NCBI GenBank assembly: GCA_029863035.1
Contig: JAOTWH010000135.1
Span: 1 to 6,246, forward strand
Direction: 5' to 3'
DNA length: 6,246 bases
Source of the DNA: Acidimicrobiia bacterium
Lineage (GTDB): Bacteria; Actinomycetota; Acidimicrobiia; UBA5794; JAOTWH01
The position numbers and the translations under genes are program-made. The notes under the pieces are model-generated. The model saw nothing but the letters and a program-made list of their open reading frames with translations. It ran no database searches and was not told the DNA's origin. Below are positions 1 to 5,942 of the stretch, in pieces. Within the stretch, counting starts at the first letter, position 1, and each line of letters opens with the position of its first letter.

Positions 1-1036
1 GTGGCTCCATCAGCCCATCGCTCACCACCGGCTGAGCGATGCAGTCGTCCATCGGATGGACCCCGGTGCCGGGGATCCCCCACTCGATGGGTGCGTCGGT
101 GTACCCCAGGGCGGGGAGAACCTGGGAGTGGATGTGGGGGAACATGTGAGGGGAGAAGGCGACCCCGCGGGCGGTGATCGATTTGAGGATCTCGGGCAGC
201 CGGGTGATACCGCCATTGGTGGTGACGTCCACCCGCACTACGTCGACCGCATCGAACTCGAGCAGTGCCTGGGGGTGGTAAGAGCCGCCCTGCTCATCGC
301 CCATGGCCACCGGCAGGTTGACCCCGGCCCGGATGTCGGCCACCAAGCGGGCGTCACCGGGAGGCACGATGTCCTCGAACCACCCACAATCGACCTCCTC
401 GAGGCGCTTCCCGAAGTCGATGGCGTCCTGCGCCGTTCGGAACACCATGTTGGCATCGAAGCCGATCCAGCCGTCGGGGGCGGCCTCTCGCGCCGCCCGC
501 ATCCGATCCATGCTGAGGTCCAGGGTGGGAGCGATGGCGATCTTGAAGCGCCGCCACCCCTTGGCCCACAGGTCGGTCACCTGGGCAGCGGTCTCTTCCG
601 GAGTCAGCGATGGCGGGTAGCCAACGATGGCGGTCACCGCCATGGGATGACGATCACCGCCCAGGTAGGCGCTGATCGACTGATCGGCCGCCTTGGCGGC
701 AAGATCCCATGCCGCAACGTCGACGATGGACAGCGCCCGCATCCCGATGCCGGCGGCGTGGACCGCGTGGTTGGTCCACAACGCGTTGTAGAAGAGCTGC
801 TCGGGGTCATCGACCGCCTCGCCCTCGTAAACCGGGGCGATGGTGCGATGAATGATGTCGGCCACCGGACCGTCACGGGTGAGGCAGTAGGCGAAGCCGC
901 GCAGGCCGCTCTCGGCGTCGATGCGGATGAGGACGAACTCGCGATGGCGCATCACCCACGAGCCGAAATGGATGGGCGTCTCCAGCTCGTGCTTGATGGT
1001 GGCGGCACGCACTGACGTAATCCGGTCGGCGCTCAT
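1..1036 (-). CDS. Enolase-superfamily (mandelate racemase-like) sugar-acid dehydratase, 3' end cut by window edge
   Basis: 345 codons are visible with no stop before the left edge, so the C-terminus is missing. The N-terminal capping domain (about 1-130) ends in the family segment around residues 101-127 (ALSIVDVAAWD...YLGG). A TIM barrel follows, with likely metal ligands D194 (FDAN), E221 (WFED) and D247/E248 (MGDEQGG). Acid/base residues are D270 and H297 (SPH), with E318 on strand 8. These fall almost exactly where mandelate racemase has D195, E221, E247, D270, H297 and E317. The strand-2 KxK motif reads K165-I-A167, so the second lysine is absent. The His-Asp dyad fits acid-sugar dehydratases, which convert an aldonate to a 2-keto-3-deoxy acid. 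The ATG overlaps the SDR1 stop as ATGA with only a weak Shine-Dalgarno, implying coupled translation. The superfamily call is firm; the substrate is unknown. Confidence 0.93.
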   Translation of the reverse strand, partial: MSADRITSVRAATIKHELETPIHFGSWVMRHREFVLIRIDAESGLRGFAYCLTRDGPVADIIHRTIAPVYEGEAVDDPEQLFYNALWTNHAVHAAGIGMRALSIVDVAAWDLAAKAADQSISAYLGGDRHPMAVTAIVGYPPSLTPEETAAQVTDLWAKGWRRFKIAIAPTLDLSMDRMRAAREAAPDGWIGFDANMVFRTAQDAIDFGKRLEEVDCGWFEDIVPPGDARLVADIRAGVNLPVAMGDEQGGSYHPQALLEFDAVDVVRVDVTTNGGITRLPEILKSITARGVAFSPHMFPHIHSQVLPALGYTDAPIEWGIPGTGVHPMDDCIAQPVVSDGLMEP

Positions 1037-1848
1037 ACCGCAAGGTATCCATCGTCGCACATCACGGTGTGGCCGGTGACCAGCTCCGAGGCGTCACTGG
1101 CCAGGAAGATCGCCGTTCCGATCAGTTCCCGCGGCAGGCCGAGGCGGTTCTCCCGCAGCATCCGACCGATGATGAAGTCCGTGGTCACCGTGCTTCCGCT
1201 CTTCTCGGCGACACCGCTGATCAGTGGCGAATCCATCAGGGTGGGGCCAATGGCGTTGACTCGGACTCCCCGGGTCCGCCACTCCAGGGCCATTGCCCGG
1301 GTGATCTGCACCACACCGCCCTTGGAGGCCAGATAGGCACTGGCCCACGGATAGGCGATGAAGCCGCCGATCGATGCCATGTTGATGATGCTGCCCTTGC
1401 CCTGGGCCAGCATCTTGCGGCCGAACGCCTGCCCGCACAGGTAAACGCCCTTGAGATTGAGCTCGATAACCGAGTCGAATGCCTCCTCCGGGAAGTCCTC
1501 TACCGACGACCGGTAGGCCTTGCCTGCGTTGGCCAACAGGATGTCGACGCTGCCCAGCTCGTCGACCACCCAATCGGCCAGTGCCTCCACCTCTGGCTTG
1601 TCGGTCACGTCGACGGCACGAGCATGGGCGGTGCCACCCTGAGCGGCGATGGTGGCAGCTGTCTTCTCGGCACCGGCCAGGTTGATGTCGGCAACCACCA
1701 CCCGGGCACCAGCCTGGGCGAATCCGATCGAGCAAGCTGCACCCAGTCCGCTTCCGCCGCCGGTGACCACGGCCACCCGGCCGCTGATGTCGAAAAGATT
1801 GGCGACGTAGTCGTCAGGAACGTTGAGGCCCTCGTCGGTGTCGCTCAT
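1033..1848 (-). CDS. Short-chain dehydrogenase/reductase, NAD-type (SDR1)
   Basis: A 271-aa classical SDR. It shows the Rossmann glycine motif TGGGSGLG (29-36) and an acidic residue after strand 2 (D54 in VADIN), which favours NAD(H) over NADP(H). It also has NAG (107-109) and the catalytic tetrad N131, S159, Y172, K176 (YxxxK). The usual PG after strand 6 is GP (201-202) here, and the C-terminus carries CDDGY instead of the common DGG. The start at 1848 is chosen because AGGA lies 6 nt upstream and the ATG overlaps the preceding stop as ATGA. The frame is open upstream to 2013, but that part reads as the complement of the isomerase gene and has no Rossmann features. Between a lactonase and an enolase-superfamily dehydratase, it most likely oxidises an aldose to its lactone, or a later 2-keto-3-deoxy acid. 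The exact substrate cannot be read. Confidence 0.93.
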   Translation of the reverse strand: MSDTDEGLNVPDDYVANLFDISGRVAVVTGGGSGLGAACSIGFAQAGARVVVADINLAGAEKTAATIAAQGGTAHARAVDVTDKPEVEALADWVVDELGSVDILLANAGKAYRSSVEDFPEEAFDSVIELNLKGVYLCGQAFGRKMLAQGKGSIINMASIGGFIAYPWASAYLASKGGVVQITRAMALEWRTRGVRVNAIGPTLMDSPLISGVAEKSGSTVTTDFIIGRMLRENRLGLPRELIGTAIFLASDASELVTGHTVMCDDGYLAV

Positions 1849-2141
1849 GTCGGATCCTGCGGATTGATCGGATCGGATGGATGGGCGGCCAGCGCTTCTA
1901 CCTCGACCGACAGCCAGGGAAAGAGAGGCAGAGACGAGATCGCCCTGTGCAGCGCAGTGGCATCGGGAGCCTCCCACAATCCCCAGTTGGCTCGCCGTCC
2001 CGGGATGCGCCACAATCGGCGGATGGTCCCCTCTGCCACCAGCTCAGCGGCCCGGGCAGCTTCGGCGGCTCTTAGCTCGGCGTGCTGATCGGCATCGCCG
2101 TCAGGGGGCCAGTTGACCTCGACGTTCACCAGGAATTCCAC
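1845..2141 (-). CDS. Muconolactone delta-isomerase-family small protein
   Basis: A 98-aa protein that resembles CatC (about 90-100 aa) over its whole length. Recognisable segments are the N-terminal strand MEFLVNVEVNWPPD (1-14), the core LWRIPGRRANWGLWEAPDA (43-61), and SLPLFPWLSVEVEALAAHPSD (70-90). This family adopts a small ferredoxin-like fold and normally isomerises muconolactone in catechol breakdown. No catechol-pathway gene lies in the window. Its neighbours are instead a sugar-lactone hydrolase and an SDR, so isomerisation of a sugar lactone, or a mutarotase-like role, is inferred. The start is GTG at 2141, one base after the lactonase stop, with AAAGGA 5 nt upstream. Its stop overlaps the SDR1 start as ATGA. 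Family assignment is strong; function in this setting is open. Confidence 0.88.
   Translation of the reverse strand: MEFLVNVEVNWPPDGDADQHAELRAAEAARAAELVAEGTIRRLWRIPGRRANWGLWEAPDATALHRAISSLPLFPWLSVEVEALAAHPSDPINPQDPT
1855..1858 (-). promoter_or_regulatory. Ribosome binding site fixing the SDR1 start
   Basis: AGGA on the minus strand lies 6 nt upstream of ATG at 1848, inside the isomerase-family gene. It supports this ATG over upstream in-frame starts as far as 2013. Confidence 0.6.
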
Positions 2142-2142
2142 G

Positions 2143-3057
2143 TCAGTCCTTTCGGTCGCTCAATTTCATACCGTCTTGCACTTCCGGCTCGATACCGAGT
2201 TGGTCGGCATTCGGATAGAAGAGTGGTACCCCGCTCAAGCCCGGCACACGGAAGCGGGTGGCGTGCCAGCGGCCGATGTTGGGCATTACCAAGATGTCCA
2301 GATCGGGGCCGGTGAAGACAACGTTGGTGGGCGCCGCCAGAACTGTGCCTTCGGGGTCGTGGCCCAACACCTCGAGTCCGGAGCTCGCGCTCCAGCGGTA
2401 GACAATGTCGGGCCGGTAGCAAGAGATGACCACCGAGCCGTCGGTAGCGAAGGCGATCCCGTCTGGTACCGATCCGGTTAGGTCAGCCAAGACCTCCATC
2501 GGACCCGCGGTGTGGTCGTCGCGTATCGGGAACCTCAGTAGACGACCCGGCGTGCTCTCCAGCACCCACAGACTCGACTCATCTGGAGACACCGCCATGC
2601 CGTTGGGAAAGTCGCGCGACTCCTCAGACCACACCTCGGTTGCCCGGCCAGGACGTACCAGGAAGATGCGGCCGTCCGCCGTCTTCCATCCTCCCGAATC
2701 CGAAACGTAGTAATTGCCCCGGCTGTCGAAAGCACCCCAGTTGGGGTTCTTGAAGGGTGCCTGTGGGGTCCCGGCCGAGAACTCTTCGACAGCTCCCGAG
2801 TCCGGGTCGACCCGGTAGACCCGCTTATTGGCAGGATCGCAGGCGTAGATCATCCCGTGGCTGTCGGCGGCCAGACCCAGGGTGAAACCGCCGGTGTTGG
2901 CAACCTCGGTGAATGTGTCGTCCGGCTCGATGCGATAGATCTGCCCGGCCTCACCGCTCAGGTACACGATCCCGTCGAGCGTTTTGCAGATCCCCTCGGG
3001 GTGGTCGACCCCGTTGGCGATCTGTTCCATGTCCTCGAGAGGTACCAAGGGCTTCAT
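2143..3057 (-). CDS. SMP-30/gluconolactonase-family sugar lactone hydrolase
   Basis: A 304-aa protein of the six-bladed beta-propeller lactonase family, close to the usual 290-305 aa. Expected divalent-metal ligands are E21 (HPEG), N152 (FPNG) and D199 (VPDG), matching the E-N-D triad at about 18, 154 and 204 in SMP-30. N104 in KNPNW fits the substrate/metal-proximal Asn of the family. Repeated blade-like segments of the DGxxYxxD type occur, for example near 28-33, 68-74 and 113-120. No signal peptide is seen, so the enzyme should be cytoplasmic. It probably opens an aldonolactone made by a partner dehydrogenase. It is the first gene of the left operon: ATG at 3057 has GGAAAGG 8 nt upstream, and the promoter region is shared with the divergent lipoyl gene. 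Other members hydrolyse non-sugar lactones, so the substrate is inferred from neighbours. Confidence 0.92.
   Translation of the reverse strand: MKPLVPLEDMEQIANGVDHPEGICKTLDGIVYLSGEAGQIYRIEPDDTFTEVANTGGFTLGLAADSHGMIYACDPANKRVYRVDPDSGAVEEFSAGTPQAPFKNPNWGAFDSRGNYYVSDSGGWKTADGRIFLVRPGRATEVWSEESRDFPNGMAVSPDESSLWVLESTPGRLLRFPIRDDHTAGPMEVLADLTGSVPDGIAFATDGSVVISCYRPDIVYRWSASSGLEVLGHDPEGTVLAAPTNVVFTGPDLDILVMPNIGRWHATRFRVPGLSGVPLFYPNADQLGIEPEVQDGMKLSDRKD
2147..2152 (-). promoter_or_regulatory. Ribosome binding site fixing the GTG start of the isomerase-family gene
   Basis: AAAGGA on the minus strand ends 5 nt before GTG at 2141. It lies inside the last codons of the lactonase gene. It supports the GTG, which also opens the conserved N-terminal strand of the family, as the true start. 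Confidence 0.7.
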
Positions 3058-3163: not shown

Positions 3164-3406
3164 GTGCGGATACCTATCGCAATGCCGAACCTGGGCTACG
3201 ACATGGAAACGGGAACCGTGGTGGCCTGGCTGAAATCGGTGGGCGACACCGTCGCCCGCGGCGAACACATCGCCGAGATCGAAGGCGAAAAGGCCGTCCT
3301 GCAGATGCCGGCCCTGGCCGCTGGCACCTTGGTGGAGATCGTTCACGATGTGGGAACCGAGGCAGCGGTCGGCGAGACCATCGCCTTCCTGGAAACAGAA
3401 GACTGA
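3164..3406 (+). CDS. Free-standing lipoyl-domain protein
   Basis: An 80-aa protein that is one complete lipoyl domain and nothing else. It begins like E2 subunits of 2-oxoacid dehydrogenases (MPNLGYDMETGTVVAWLKSVGD, split here as MPNLGYDMETG at 7-17 and GDTVARG at 27-33). The lipoyl-lysine hairpin reads EGEKA with K43 at its tip, in place of the canonical ETDKA. The second half (A50 to about G70) carries the usual mirrored fold. The AMKM motif of biotinyl domains is absent. There is no hinge, E1/E3-binding domain or catalytic core, and SDR2 starts 13 nt later, so it is not simply the N-terminus of a longer E2. It is too short for GcvH (about 125 aa). It could carry acyl or reducing groups between enzymes encoded elsewhere; lipoylation and partner are inferred. 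It is transcribed divergently from the lactonase operon. Confidence 0.9.
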   Translation: MRIPIAMPNLGYDMETGTVVAWLKSVGDTVARGEHIAEIEGEKAVLQMPALAAGTLVEIVHDVGTEAAVGETIAFLETED

Positions 3407-3419
3407 CAAGGCCGGGGTG

Positions 3420-4184
3420 ATGGCACAGGACCGCAAGACCGTCGTGGTGACCGGAGCCGCCAAGGGGTTAGGGGCAGCGTCGGCAGAGGCTTTCGCCGCG
3501 GCTGGGTACCGGGTCGCTCTGGTCGACATGGATGAAGAGGCGATGCGCCAACAAGCCGACTCCATGGGCGACGACGATCACTTCACCGTGGTGTGCGACG
3601 TTGCCGATTGGGAACAGGTTGAGACGGCTTTCGGGGAAATCGGTGACAAGGCAGGAGACATCCATGCCCTGCACGCCAACGCCGGAAGCCAGCGCTACGG
3701 CATGTTCGAGGAGATGTCTATCGACGAGATCCGGCGTCACGTCGAGGTCAACCTGCTTGGGCAGCTCTATTGCATCAAGGGTGCGCTACCTCTGATGACG
3801 GATGGCGGGGCCATCGTCATCACCGCCTCGGTGCAGGGACACATCACGTTGCCCGGCTCGGCGGCCTACGCAGCTTCCAAGGCCGGGCTCATGGCGACGG
3901 CTCGCGCCCTGTCGGTCGAGCTCGGGCCCAAGAACATTCGCATCAACACCGTCAGCCCCGGCACCATCGACACCCCCATGTTCCAGGACGCCTTGGAGGG
4001 GATGAACCCACACGAGGCCGACAACTTCCTCGACAGCGTTCGTGAGGCCAACGCTTTGGGCAGGATCGGAGAGCCGCGCCAGGTCGCCGACGTTGTGGTG
4101 TTCCTGTGCTCCGACGGGGCCAGCTACATAACCGGAACCGATCTGCTCGTCGACGGTGGATTCGCCACCGTTAAGAAGTTCTGA
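3420..4184 (+). CDS. Short-chain dehydrogenase/reductase, NAD-type (SDR2)
   Basis: A 254-aa classical SDR. It has TGAAKGLG (11-18), D36 after strand 2 (VDMD) favouring NAD(H), NAG (87-89), catalytic N111, S137, Y150 and K154, the SPG turn (179-181), and a C-terminal VDGGF. Length is typical. ATG at 3420 is chosen because AAGG (3408-3411) lies 8 nt upstream and the family N-terminus follows at once; a GTG one codon earlier is possible. It follows the lipoyl gene after 13 nt, so the two are probably co-transcribed. Its last 14 bp overlap the end of the convergent gluconokinase gene. Candidate roles are oxidation of an aldose or of a 2-keto-3-deoxy sugar acid, the second dehydrogenase step in non-phosphorylative fucose- or rhamnose-type pathways. 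The sequence does not decide between them. Confidence 0.93.
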   Translation: MAQDRKTVVVTGAAKGLGAASAEAFAAAGYRVALVDMDEEAMRQQADSMGDDDHFTVVCDVADWEQVETAFGEIGDKAGDIHALHANAGSQRYGMFEEMSIDEIRRHVEVNLLGQLYCIKGALPLMTDGGAIVITASVQGHITLPGSAAYAASKAGLMATARALSVELGPKNIRINTVSPGTIDTPMFQDALEGMNPHEADNFLDSVREANALGRIGEPRQVADVVVFLCSDGASYITGTDLLVDGGFATVKKF

Positions 4185-4680
4185 AGCGTCGGGCGACCAA
4201 ACCCTCCAGCGCACGGGCCACGATCTCGCTCGGCCCGGCATCGGCATCCACCATCACCGCATCTGCCGGCTCCTCGAGCGCATCGAACTGGCTCTGCAAC
4301 ATGTCGGCCTTCATGTAATGCCCCTCCCGCTCCTCCAGTCTCCGTGCGATGGTGTCGTAGTCGCCCTTTAGGAACACGAAGTGGACCTGAGGGTCTTGCG
4401 CCGCGAGCTGGTCGCGGTAGACCTGCTTCATAGCCGAGCAGGCCAGCACCAGTGAAGTGCCGGTAGCGAGGTGGTCGTCGATGACCCCACGCAATAGGGC
4501 CAGCCAGGGAAGCCGATCATTGTCGTCGAGCGCGATGCCGCTCGCCATCTTCTCGATGCTCTGGGGAGAGTGATAGTCGTCGGCATCGACGAACGCTGCC
4601 CCTAATTCCGCAGCCAGTGATTTGCCAACGGTGGTCTTGCCCGACCCCGACACTCCCATCACGACGACGACGTATCCCAT
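4171..4680 (-). CDS. gntK: Gluconokinase (GntK-type carbohydrate kinase)
   Basis: A 169-aa P-loop kinase that phosphorylates D-gluconate at C6 to 6-phosphogluconate, feeding the pentose-phosphate or Entner-Doudoroff route. The Walker A is GVSGSGKT (9-16), within the family signature GVSGSGKTTVG. Next come the substrate-site acidic segment DADDYHS (32-38), the motif IEKMASGIALDDNDRLPWL (42-60), CSAMKQVYRD (81-90) and GHYMKADMLQSQFDALEEP (120-138). All are hallmarks of bacterial GntK/human IDNK-like gluconokinases, and the length is standard. The ATG shares its A with the stop of the LarA-like gene (TGATG). No Shine-Dalgarno is visible, so translation probably depends on re-initiation. It ends with TAA inside the last codons of convergent SDR2. 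Activity on another aldonate is possible but less likely. Confidence 0.95.
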   Translation of the reverse strand: MGYVVVVMGVSGSGKTTVGKSLAAELGAAFVDADDYHSPQSIEKMASGIALDDNDRLPWLALLRGVIDDHLATGTSLVLACSAMKQVYRDQLAAQDPQVHFVFLKGDYDTIARRLEEREGHYMKADMLQSQFDALEEPADAVMVDADAGPSEIVARALEGLVARRFRTS

Positions 4681-5942
4681 CAGCCGGAGCCGAGGCGATA
4701 CAACAGCTCGCCTGCTTCCTCTACCAAGAAACGTCCCTCGGCATCGCGCCATTCGTCCGGATTGATTCTCGCCGGATCTCGATAGCCCAGGTTGACCTCT
4801 CGACACAGCTCCTCGGGGATCCCCGTTGCCAAGGACACGGTGATGCGGGGATACTCGACGCCGTCGTTGTATTCGCCGAGCCCCTTGACATGGGTGGAGT
4901 GCGCCAGGATGGCCCACGGCAGATGCTCGAAGCGGTCCCATTGGTTCACGAAGTAATCCCGTACGTGATAGCCCACCTCACGGATCAGCTCTCCGTGGAC
5001 CGAGCTGATCTCGGTGAGCTGTGGCGCGTAGATGATCACCTCGCCGCCGTCGGCCACGATCGGCTCGGTCTTGTAGGTGGCTTTGGCGGCGGTCCAGAGG
5101 TCGCCATACATCGCGGACGGCACCGAAAGCACCGACTGGAATGGTCGGTCAACGAACTCGATGTTGAGCTGCGTCGAGGCGTCTGCAGCCGCCTCCCATG
5201 CGTCGAACAGGTTGCCCACATAGAGGCCATGGGTCTCCTTGCCATCCATGACGAGCGCCAGCAGCGTGATCGGTCGCTCGGCCAGCACGAATTCGGCAGC
5301 GCGGTGCAGCATGCGCCGAACCGCGGTGTCCTTGACCCCCATGGCCACCGAGCTGGTCGCCAGGGCTCCCATCCAATGAACGCTGTTGATGATGTCGGGC
5401 CCGGCGATACCGGGGAAGAGGTACTTGGCGCCACCGGAGAACCCTGCCGCCTCGTGCGGGAAGACCGGACCGACGACGAACAGATGGTCGTAATCGCGGA
5501 ACCGGCCGTTGATGTGTATCGGTGTCTCTTTGGTCACGAGGCCATCGGTGATCTCGCCCATGGTGAGCACGTCGATCGTCCCCACATGAACCAATGCCTC
5601 GGGATGATGCCATTCGTGGTTGAAGACCTGTGAGCGCGGAGTGCGAGTCGCTCGCTCCTGTGCGTCCATGCCAACCAGCGAAGCGATGGCTTCCTCGCTC
5701 ATCGGTGGGTGTGTCCCCAACGCGATGAGGTAATCGAGGGCCGCGACGCTCTCTCCAAGTAGTTCGTAGAGCGAGCGATAGATCTGAGGCATCGGGGCGT
5801 TGCGGGTCCCATCGGGGATGATCACCAGCACTCGCTTGCCCCCAAGGTCGAGACCAGCCAGCCCGTCGCCGATGAGCCGGTCGAGTTGGCTTTCGTCGAG
5901 GGGCTGGTCGAGGTCGCTCTCGCCAGTGACGTCGGTAGTCAT
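4680..5942 (-). CDS. LarA-family nickel-pincer 2-hydroxyacid racemase/epimerase (possible aldonate C2 epimerase)
   Basis: A 420-aa protein (lactate racemase LarA is about 424) with the LarA signatures: PDGTR with D44/R47, GTH with H78, PHEAAGFSGGAK with H163 and K173, and SVHW with H189. By position these match LarA D72/R75, H108, H174, K184 (the lysine that binds the nickel-pincer cofactor) and H200. SGGAK replaces SGGRK, and K287 is a candidate for LarA K298. The family interconverts C2 epimers of 2-hydroxyacids by hydride transfer; members act on lactate, malate, phenyllactate or D-gluconate. The overlap with gluconokinase favours an aldonate substrate (inference). LarB, LarC and LarE cofactor genes are not in the window. 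The start at 5942 gives family length and leaves 58 nt after the upstream gene; the frame is open to 6053 but would then overlap it. The ribosome binding site is weak. Confidence 0.9.
   Translation of the reverse strand: MTTDVTGESDLDQPLDESQLDRLIGDGLAGLDLGGKRVLVIIPDGTRNAPMPQIYRSLYELLGESVAALDYLIALGTHPPMSEEAIASLVGMDAQERATRTPRSQVFNHEWHHPEALVHVGTIDVLTMGEITDGLVTKETPIHINGRFRDYDHLFVVGPVFPHEAAGFSGGAKYLFPGIAGPDIINSVHWMGALATSSVAMGVKDTAVRRMLHRAAEFVLAERPITLLALVMDGKETHGLYVGNLFDAWEAAADASTQLNIEFVDRPFQSVLSVPSAMYGDLWTAAKATYKTEPIVADGGEVIIYAPQLTEISSVHGELIREVGYHVRDYFVNQWDRFEHLPWAILAHSTHVKGLGEYNDGVEYPRITVSLATGIPEELCREVNLGYRDPARINPDEWRDAEGRFLVEEAGELLYRLGSG

Follow-up and report, generated by a model that had tools for sequence, protein, structure and literature searches.

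Organization of the LarA-gluconokinase locus

The stretch of DNA analyzed here, 6,246 bases of contig JAOTWH010000135.1 from an Acidimicrobiia bacterium (hereafter, the window), carries on its minus strand a gene for a LarA-superfamily protein that runs into a gene for a gluconokinase. We examined this pair as a candidate module for converting D-mannonate via D-gluconate to 6-phosphogluconate. Its features, each with the evidence for it (ORF, open reading frame), are as follows.

4680..5942, minus strand: LarA-superfamily epimerase, GntE-like, predicted D-gluconate/D-mannonate 2-epimerase, 420 aa (ORF, Pfam/NCBIfam, alignment, fold, tree)
4171..4680, minus strand: gluconokinase, GntK/IdnK type, 169 aa (ORF and TIGR01313)
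4678..4682, minus strand: TGATG stop/start overlap of both genes (ORF listing and sequence)
5451..5456, minus strand: codons of His163-Glu164, with His163 as the catalytic histidine and Glu164 as part of the aldonate-type loop (alignment)
5424..5426, minus strand: codon of Lys173, equivalent to K184 of LarA and K164 of GntE2 (alignment and the equivalences described in PMC7583248)

The LarA-type ORF is complete, running from an ATG start at 5942 to 4680, and its TGA stop (4682-4680) shares one base with the gluconokinase ATG (4680-4678), so that the TGATG overlap reported in the original prediction was seen in both the ORF listing and the sequence. The gluconokinase belongs to the GntK/IdnK family, scoring 174.8 bits against TIGR01313 (cut-off, 113.75). 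The kinase had also been predicted to lack a ribosome site of its own. We found no Shine-Dalgarno-like match of at least 4 bases within 20 nucleotides (nt) upstream of the gluconokinase start, and likewise none upstream of the LarA start. The observation therefore stands, but because LarA lacks such a site as well, it argues only weakly for translational coupling.

Pairing of the two genes recurs among relatives. A gluconokinase match lay on a contig of equal size for 11 of the 29 nearest LarA relatives, excluding the window's own entry and counting among the matches listed (120 per search, with the best 30 LarA matches compared and 8000 candidates scored in the LarA search). This repeated co-occurrence, together with the Deinococcota regions described below, led us to reject chance adjacency. 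When spacing was measured for 16 same-strand LarA-GntK pairs, seven were tight, with gaps of +3, +3, 0, -4, -4, -4, and +5 nt (L114, L120, L121, L126, L128, L130, and L001, respectively), and six had gaps of 352-424 nt filled by another gene; the values for L127, L131, and L132 are meaningless, as their ORF calls were overlong.

Family, residues, and predicted fold of the LarA-type protein

The window LarA matched Pfam Lar_N at 81.9 bits (cut-off, 23.3; E = 4.8e-23), which places it in the LarA superfamily. PMC7583248 describes the residue equivalences of this superfamily as an Arg, a Lys, and a His that bind the nickel-pincer nucleotide (NPN) and a catalytic Asp, two His, and a Lys. The corresponding set in the window LarA, D44, R47, H78, H163, K173, H189, and K287, is entirely present, and Lys173, His78, His163, and His189 were invariant in a 25-row alignment. 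The claim of a complete LarA-family protein with the cofactor lysine and conserved histidines was thus borne out. In LarA, K184 is described as tethering the cofactor, a tether that also appears in the account given in PMC11796402. All seven cofactor and catalytic residues were complete at 30 of 30 distinct Deinococcota loci, at 77 of 78 other loci (the exception being L066), and in 119 of 119 database proteins.

LarA homolog (LarAH) groups 18-20 are characterized in PMC7583248 by a Glu after the catalytic His that is followed by V or S, a Trp in helix 11, and A or V in helix 14; Glu164 and Trp283 of the window LarA fit the Glu and the Trp of this signature. The best match to a solved structure by sequence was 4NAR (E = 6e-64, residues 24-417), with lactate racemases at 2e-6 and weaker. 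According to PMC7583248, 4NAR is Thermotoga maritima GntE2, which was assayed and converts D-mannonate to D-gluconate. An AlphaFold2 model built from 28 sequences (mean pLDDT, 86; pTM, 0.84) again matched 4NAR best, with a TM score of 0.82 (E = 1.9e-38), and lactate and malate racemases came next at 0.58-0.69. The best NCBIfam model was NF052594, which describes LarAH group 18 as a "putative hexonate epimerase," but the window LarA scored 182.2 bits against a cut-off of 500, and we rejected membership in that group. For comparison, GntE2 scored 188 bits and the Catenovulum protein scored 621 bits. The NCBIfam scores and the 4NAR match together place the window LarA on the aldonate-epimerase side of the superfamily, outside group 18.

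Phylogenetic position

Our more careful tree comprised 58 rows and was inferred with IQ-TREE under a mixture model, with a bootstrap that had not settled. In this tree, the window LarA fell in a 17-row clade (support, 99/94) that also contained Trueperaceae/Deinococcales proteins; its nearest rows were P0002 and P0004, with 88 and 85% identity, respectively. GntE2 fell within a wider 54-row set and group 18 fell outside it. In this tree, GntE2 represented the assayed GntEs and two lactate racemases represented the racemases. Clustering with lactate racemases, the outcome contrary to the original prediction, did not occur, as the tree separated the window LarA from the two that were included; malate racemases gave a worse fold match than 4NAR, and the window LarA scored far below their family cut-offs. 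In PMC11770544, an oomycete GntE is added and the GntEs occupy one branch of that paper's tree.

Operon context in relatives

A scan of genome contigs yielded at least 80 related loci, whose neighbors were hand-picked among the calls of a simple ORF finder as adjacent ORFs on the same strand. The 80 loci listed contributed 42 upstream and 34 downstream genes, with some loci giving two and the remaining loci left out; overlong and wrong-frame ORFs occurred among the calls, and one of these, at L039, had no match. Short-chain dehydrogenases/reductases (SDRs) made up 17 of the 42 upstream genes, with D-mannonate oxidoreductase as the top model of a tally that does not show the best model for each member and whose first member, L002, has a better fit to a different SDR model. 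Downstream genes encoded 6-phosphogluconate dehydrogenase (Gnd; 5), HisN-like phosphatase (5), KDG-type kinase (3), FGGY gluconokinase (2), UxaC (2), and UxaE (1).

Across 20 LarA regions from 39 Deinococcota genomes carrying the enzyme (carriers), some of them cut by contig ends, best blastp hits to reference proteins labeled GntK in 15, a mannonate-oxidoreductase-type SDR in 14, UxaC in 12, UxaE in 6, and Gnd in 2. Nine proteins were checked against NCBIfam, including those from L004 and Roseithermus and with one SDR and one Gnd drawn from loci of other phyla; cut-offs were passed by all five SDRs (as D-mannonate oxidoreductase), one UxaC, and two Gnd. At 1e-40, NCBIfam gave no match for the UxaE of L130, and that of L115 matched Pfam UxaE at E = 9e-133. 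The clearest operon was L115, from genome G120, in which UxaE, mannonate oxidoreductase, LarA, a phosphoribosyltransferase, GntK, and UxaC are encoded on one strand. The G120 LarA is almost identical to a protein named Truepera radiovictrix, and G120 is probably this species. At the end of the L115 operon (L115:12394-13395) lies a gene for a LacI-family protein, likely a regulator of the uronate operon. In Roseithermus sacchariphilus (G012, Rhodothermota), LarA is flanked by mannonate oxidoreductase and Gnd. The occurrence of mannonate oxidoreductase, UxaC, UxaE, GntK, and Gnd in relatives' operons fits a route from uronate through D-mannonate and D-gluconate to 6-phosphogluconate. UxuA is the usual exit for mannonate, and we did not find it in 28 of the 42 genomes searched, including G120, G110, and G012.

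Cofactor biosynthesis genes in carrier genomes

In the passages of the literature cited here, LarB, LarE, and LarC are the only NPN-making enzymes named. We searched for larC in all carrier sets, for larB in 13 + 111 genomes, and for larE in Deinococcota only. Among the first 13 carriers, 11 of which are not Deinococcota, larC was present in 8 and larB was over its cut-off in 7; with 50 further carriers, 39 of which have larC, the gene was present in 47 of the 61 carriers from non-Deinococcota phyla.

The picture in Deinococcota was different. The enzyme was present in 39 of 111 genomes (in G112 only as a fragment), and matches to larC, and to larB and larE over their cut-offs, came in each case from the same two genomes of the 111 (G096 and G122), where the genes are clustered. 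Only G122 has both these genes and the enzyme, so that 38 of the 39 Deinococcota carriers gave no larC and no larB or larE over family cut-offs. A quick tree placed seven of the genomes with the window in a 29-row set, and all seven belong to these 38. If weak matches are counted, larB matches occur in 80 of 111 and larE matches in 111 of 111 Deinococcota genomes, but by their position ranges these matches below cut-off look like other superfamily members. In G096, the larB-larE-larC cluster (L135:5860-8678) occurs in a genome in which we found no Lar_N match, resembling the genomes with larB, larE, and larC but without larA that are mentioned in PMC11796402.

For the 38 genomes taken as a set, incompleteness of metagenome-assembled genomes is unlikely to be the sole cause. 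The larB, larC, and larE genes lie together in G096 and G122, yet none of the three was found in G120, represented by a 3,260,398-bp contig of an approximately 3.3-Mb genome; in the complete chromosome of R. sacchariphilus, we found no larC and no larB over its cut-off. The open-licence PMC literature that we searched yielded no account of LarA without LarB, LarC, and LarE. The original prediction named a genome without larB, larC, and larE as a refuting outcome. We do not take their absence in the Deinococcota carriers as refuting the proposed reaction, because the enzyme is kept there, often in an apparently complete pathway, with its residues intact.

Among non-Deinococcota genomes with a single Lar_N match, 14 of 18 have larC, which argues that the LarA family considered here uses NPN. 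This holds with a caveat: some LarA groups escape the Lar_N model, which gave matches in 2 of 14 controls and none for C. glutamicum. In Deinococcota, G091, G092, G097, and G099 each have a second strong Lar_N match of 182-210 bits, and larB, larC, and larE were not found in these four genomes.

A phosphoribosyltransferase associated with the gene pair

Many Deinococcota carriers encode a PF00156 phosphoribosyltransferase of approximately 136-146 aa, either between LarA and GntK or fused to the N terminus of GntK. The protein contains LVDDV-V-G-T, which we take to be a phosphoribosyl pyrophosphate-type motif, and among solved structures it is closest to purine phosphoribosyltransferases. At L128:9566-10543 and L130:9627-10607, the domain is fused to the gluconokinase N terminus and the fused gene has a 4-nt overlap with the LarA stop. 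Strong matches (E < 1e-43) were found in 22 of the 39 Deinococcota carriers and in none of the 72 noncarriers (Fisher test, 5e-13, with shared ancestry ignored), and weak matches of 1e-10 to 1e-12 occurred in 5 of the 72 noncarriers. The gene lies beside LarA in 16 of the 22 genomes and on another contig in 6. The 61 carriers of other phyla gave one weak match (3e-11).

We found no strong match in 17 of the 39 Deinococcota carriers (16 of them without lar genes), in the 61 non-Deinococcota carriers (14 lacking larC), or in the window. G122, the carrier with larB, larC, and larE, likewise had no strong match, in what is a single genome. Replacement of LarB, LarC, and LarE by the phosphoribosyltransferase everywhere is not supported, given the 16 lar-less Deinococcota carriers without a strong match; for the same reason, and because the window has none, the phosphoribosyltransferase, which is tied to the module, would be at most a partial answer to cofactor supply. 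We tentatively suggest that the branch containing the window may run an NPN enzyme without LarB, LarE, and LarC, either by acquiring the finished cofactor or a precursor of it externally or by an unrecognized route, which in part of the branch might involve the phosphoribosyltransferase beside LarA or fused to gluconokinase, for example by placing phosphoribose onto a pyridine precursor.

Proposed function and alternative explanations

On the evidence of gene structure, conserved residues, predicted fold, and relatives' operons, the pair is very probably a GntE-GntK module leading from mannonate to gluconate and on to 6-phosphogluconate, with its substrate, cofactor use, coupling, and direction being predictions. 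In this proposal, the LarA-type enzyme would reversibly convert D-mannonate to D-gluconate, inverting C2 through proton-coupled hydride transfer on NPN. Arg47, Lys173, and His189 would hold this cofactor, and His78 and His163 would serve as acid/base. GntK would phosphorylate D-gluconate to 6-phosphogluconate, drawing the equilibrium toward the pentose-phosphate or Entner-Doudoroff pathways, and the stop-start overlap would keep both enzymes in step. The mannonate-to-gluconate chemistry of the original prediction is supported by the nearest structure (4NAR), most of the signature residues, and the relatives' operons. The module is not new; it is of a known kind, for which T. maritima gntE-gntK is the precedent.

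Several observations weigh against this assignment. Besides the shortfall against the group 18 model and the missing lar genes in Deinococcota carriers, the residue that follows the loop Glu is Ala in the window LarA, as in 9 of 119 database relatives, with Val in the other 110 and ES in GntE2. The GntE2 branch is long and its node is weak in the 58-row tree (80/68), and a 138-row quick tree under a simpler model placed GntE2 outside the family. Neither uronate isomerase nor 6-phosphogluconate dehydrogenase is encoded in the window, and a GntK like that of the window was found at only 2 of the 80 loci listed, in one case not adjacent, by a search that would miss FGGY kinases. UxuA is present in 14 of the 42 genomes searched, so the epimerase would not always be the sole mannonate exit. 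As reported in PMC7953866, a Saccharobesus strain did not grow on galacturonate, and its authors doubt that the epimerase pathway works.

An alternative is that a different aldonate or an aldarate is epimerized at C2 (for example, altronate/allonate, galactonate/talonate, or glucarate/mannarate), with GntK taking the product or merely sharing the operon. A loop residue unlike that of GntE2, the oxidative sugar-acid-like genes in the window (an enolase-superfamily protein, SDRs, and an SMP-30 lactonase), and the suspicion voiced in PMC7583248 that the true substrate of GntE1 is another uronate-derived acid would all suit this alternative. We nevertheless regard it as unlikely, as D-mannonate oxidoreductase, joined in some relatives' operons by UxaE and Gnd, suits conversion of mannonate to gluconate. 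A racemase of lactate, malate, or another short 2-hydroxyacid, beside gluconokinase by accident, would share the superfamily and would match the "lactate racemase" found in many database source names. Against the lactate and malate racemase families, the window LarA reached only 66-92 bits (cut-offs, 460-500). With the fold comparison, the separation from two lactate racemases in the tree, and the repeated gluconokinase co-occurrence, these scores make a racemase very improbable, and we rejected it.

The lack of larC, and of larB and larE over family cut-offs, in 38 of 39 Deinococcota carriers could instead mean that the LarA-type protein of this branch no longer uses NPN, having either adopted another redox cofactor or degenerated into a nonenzyme. 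In G122, the sole carrier with larB, larC, and larE, the cofactor could serve a second Lar_N protein, which is the stronger match. Against this loss of NPN stand the complete NPN-holding residues and both acid/base histidines at all 30 distinct Deinococcota loci and the frequency of larC in genomes of other phyla that have one Lar_N match, even if Lar_N misses some LarA groups, and we consider the loss improbable.

Relation to known systems

The proposed GntE-GntK module has its closest counterpart in T. maritima, for which PMC3750489 describes gntE and gntK in the UxaR operon; the mannonate-gluconate route was proposed by Rodionova et al. 2012, as cited in PMC6978723. The window LarA and T. 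maritima GntE2 (TM0442, PDB 4NAR, LarAH20) share the same fold, catalytic and cofactor residues, loop Glu, and helix 11 Trp, and both have a neighboring gluconokinase, with a uronate-pathway context in the window's relatives. They differ in sequence (approximately 35% identity) and in the loop, which is EA in the window, EV in most relatives, and ES in GntE2. T. maritima, used as a control, has larC over its cut-off, unlike nearly all Deinococcota carriers.

LarAH group 18 (NF052594), represented by Catenovulum and Saccharobesus, resembles the window in having GntK overlapping or fused and in its catalytic residues; its operons carry larB, plus larC in Catenovulum. The pairing is seen again on two Alteromonadaceae plasmids. 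On that of Catenovulum, gntK overlaps larA, with larC and larB adjoining. On that of Saccharobesus litoralis, a 589-aa protein annotated as gluconokinase (L081:7419-9188) has a LarA-like C-terminal part and lies beside larB, tagaturonate epimerase, and gnd. Group 18 differs in the score of the window LarA (182 bits, compared with 621 for Catenovulum) and in occupying a separate tree branch. By its description in PMC7583248, Corynebacterium glutamicum GntE1 (LarAH19) is a D-mannonate/D-gluconate 2-epimerase in a uronate context. Galacturonate fermentation by Lactobacillus suebicus, as outlined in PMC6978723, also takes uronates to 6-phosphogluconate via C2 inversion, but there a mannonate kinase acts first and a 6-phosphomannonate 2-epimerase then acts on the phosphate.

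With this assignment, the uronate route for which Thermotoga is the best-known example would gain a branch that probably belongs to Acidimicrobiia and has relatives in Deinococcota, Chloroflexota, and other phyla, and "lactate racemase" and similar database names would be corrected. A LarA-type enzyme kept without recognizable larB, larC, and larE would, if confirmed, mean that the cofactor is either scavenged or made by a second pathway, which could be tested in a cultured bacterium.

Other genes in the window

The gluconokinase gene on the minus strand and an SDR gene on the plus strand (3420-4184) have convergent 3' ends with a 14-nt overlap at 4171-4184. Directly before this SDR gene, also on the plus strand (3164-3406), lies a gene for a stand-alone 80-aa biotinyl/lipoyl domain protein, and no host enzyme for it is encoded in the window. 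On the minus strand, positions 2-3057 hold a cluster resembling an operon for the oxidative catabolism of sugar acids. Its enolase-superfamily gene runs off the window and has 90% identity to a counterpart in an Acidimicrobiia metagenome-assembled genome; the other members encode an SDR, a muconolactone-isomerase-like small protein, and an SMP-30/gluconolactonase.

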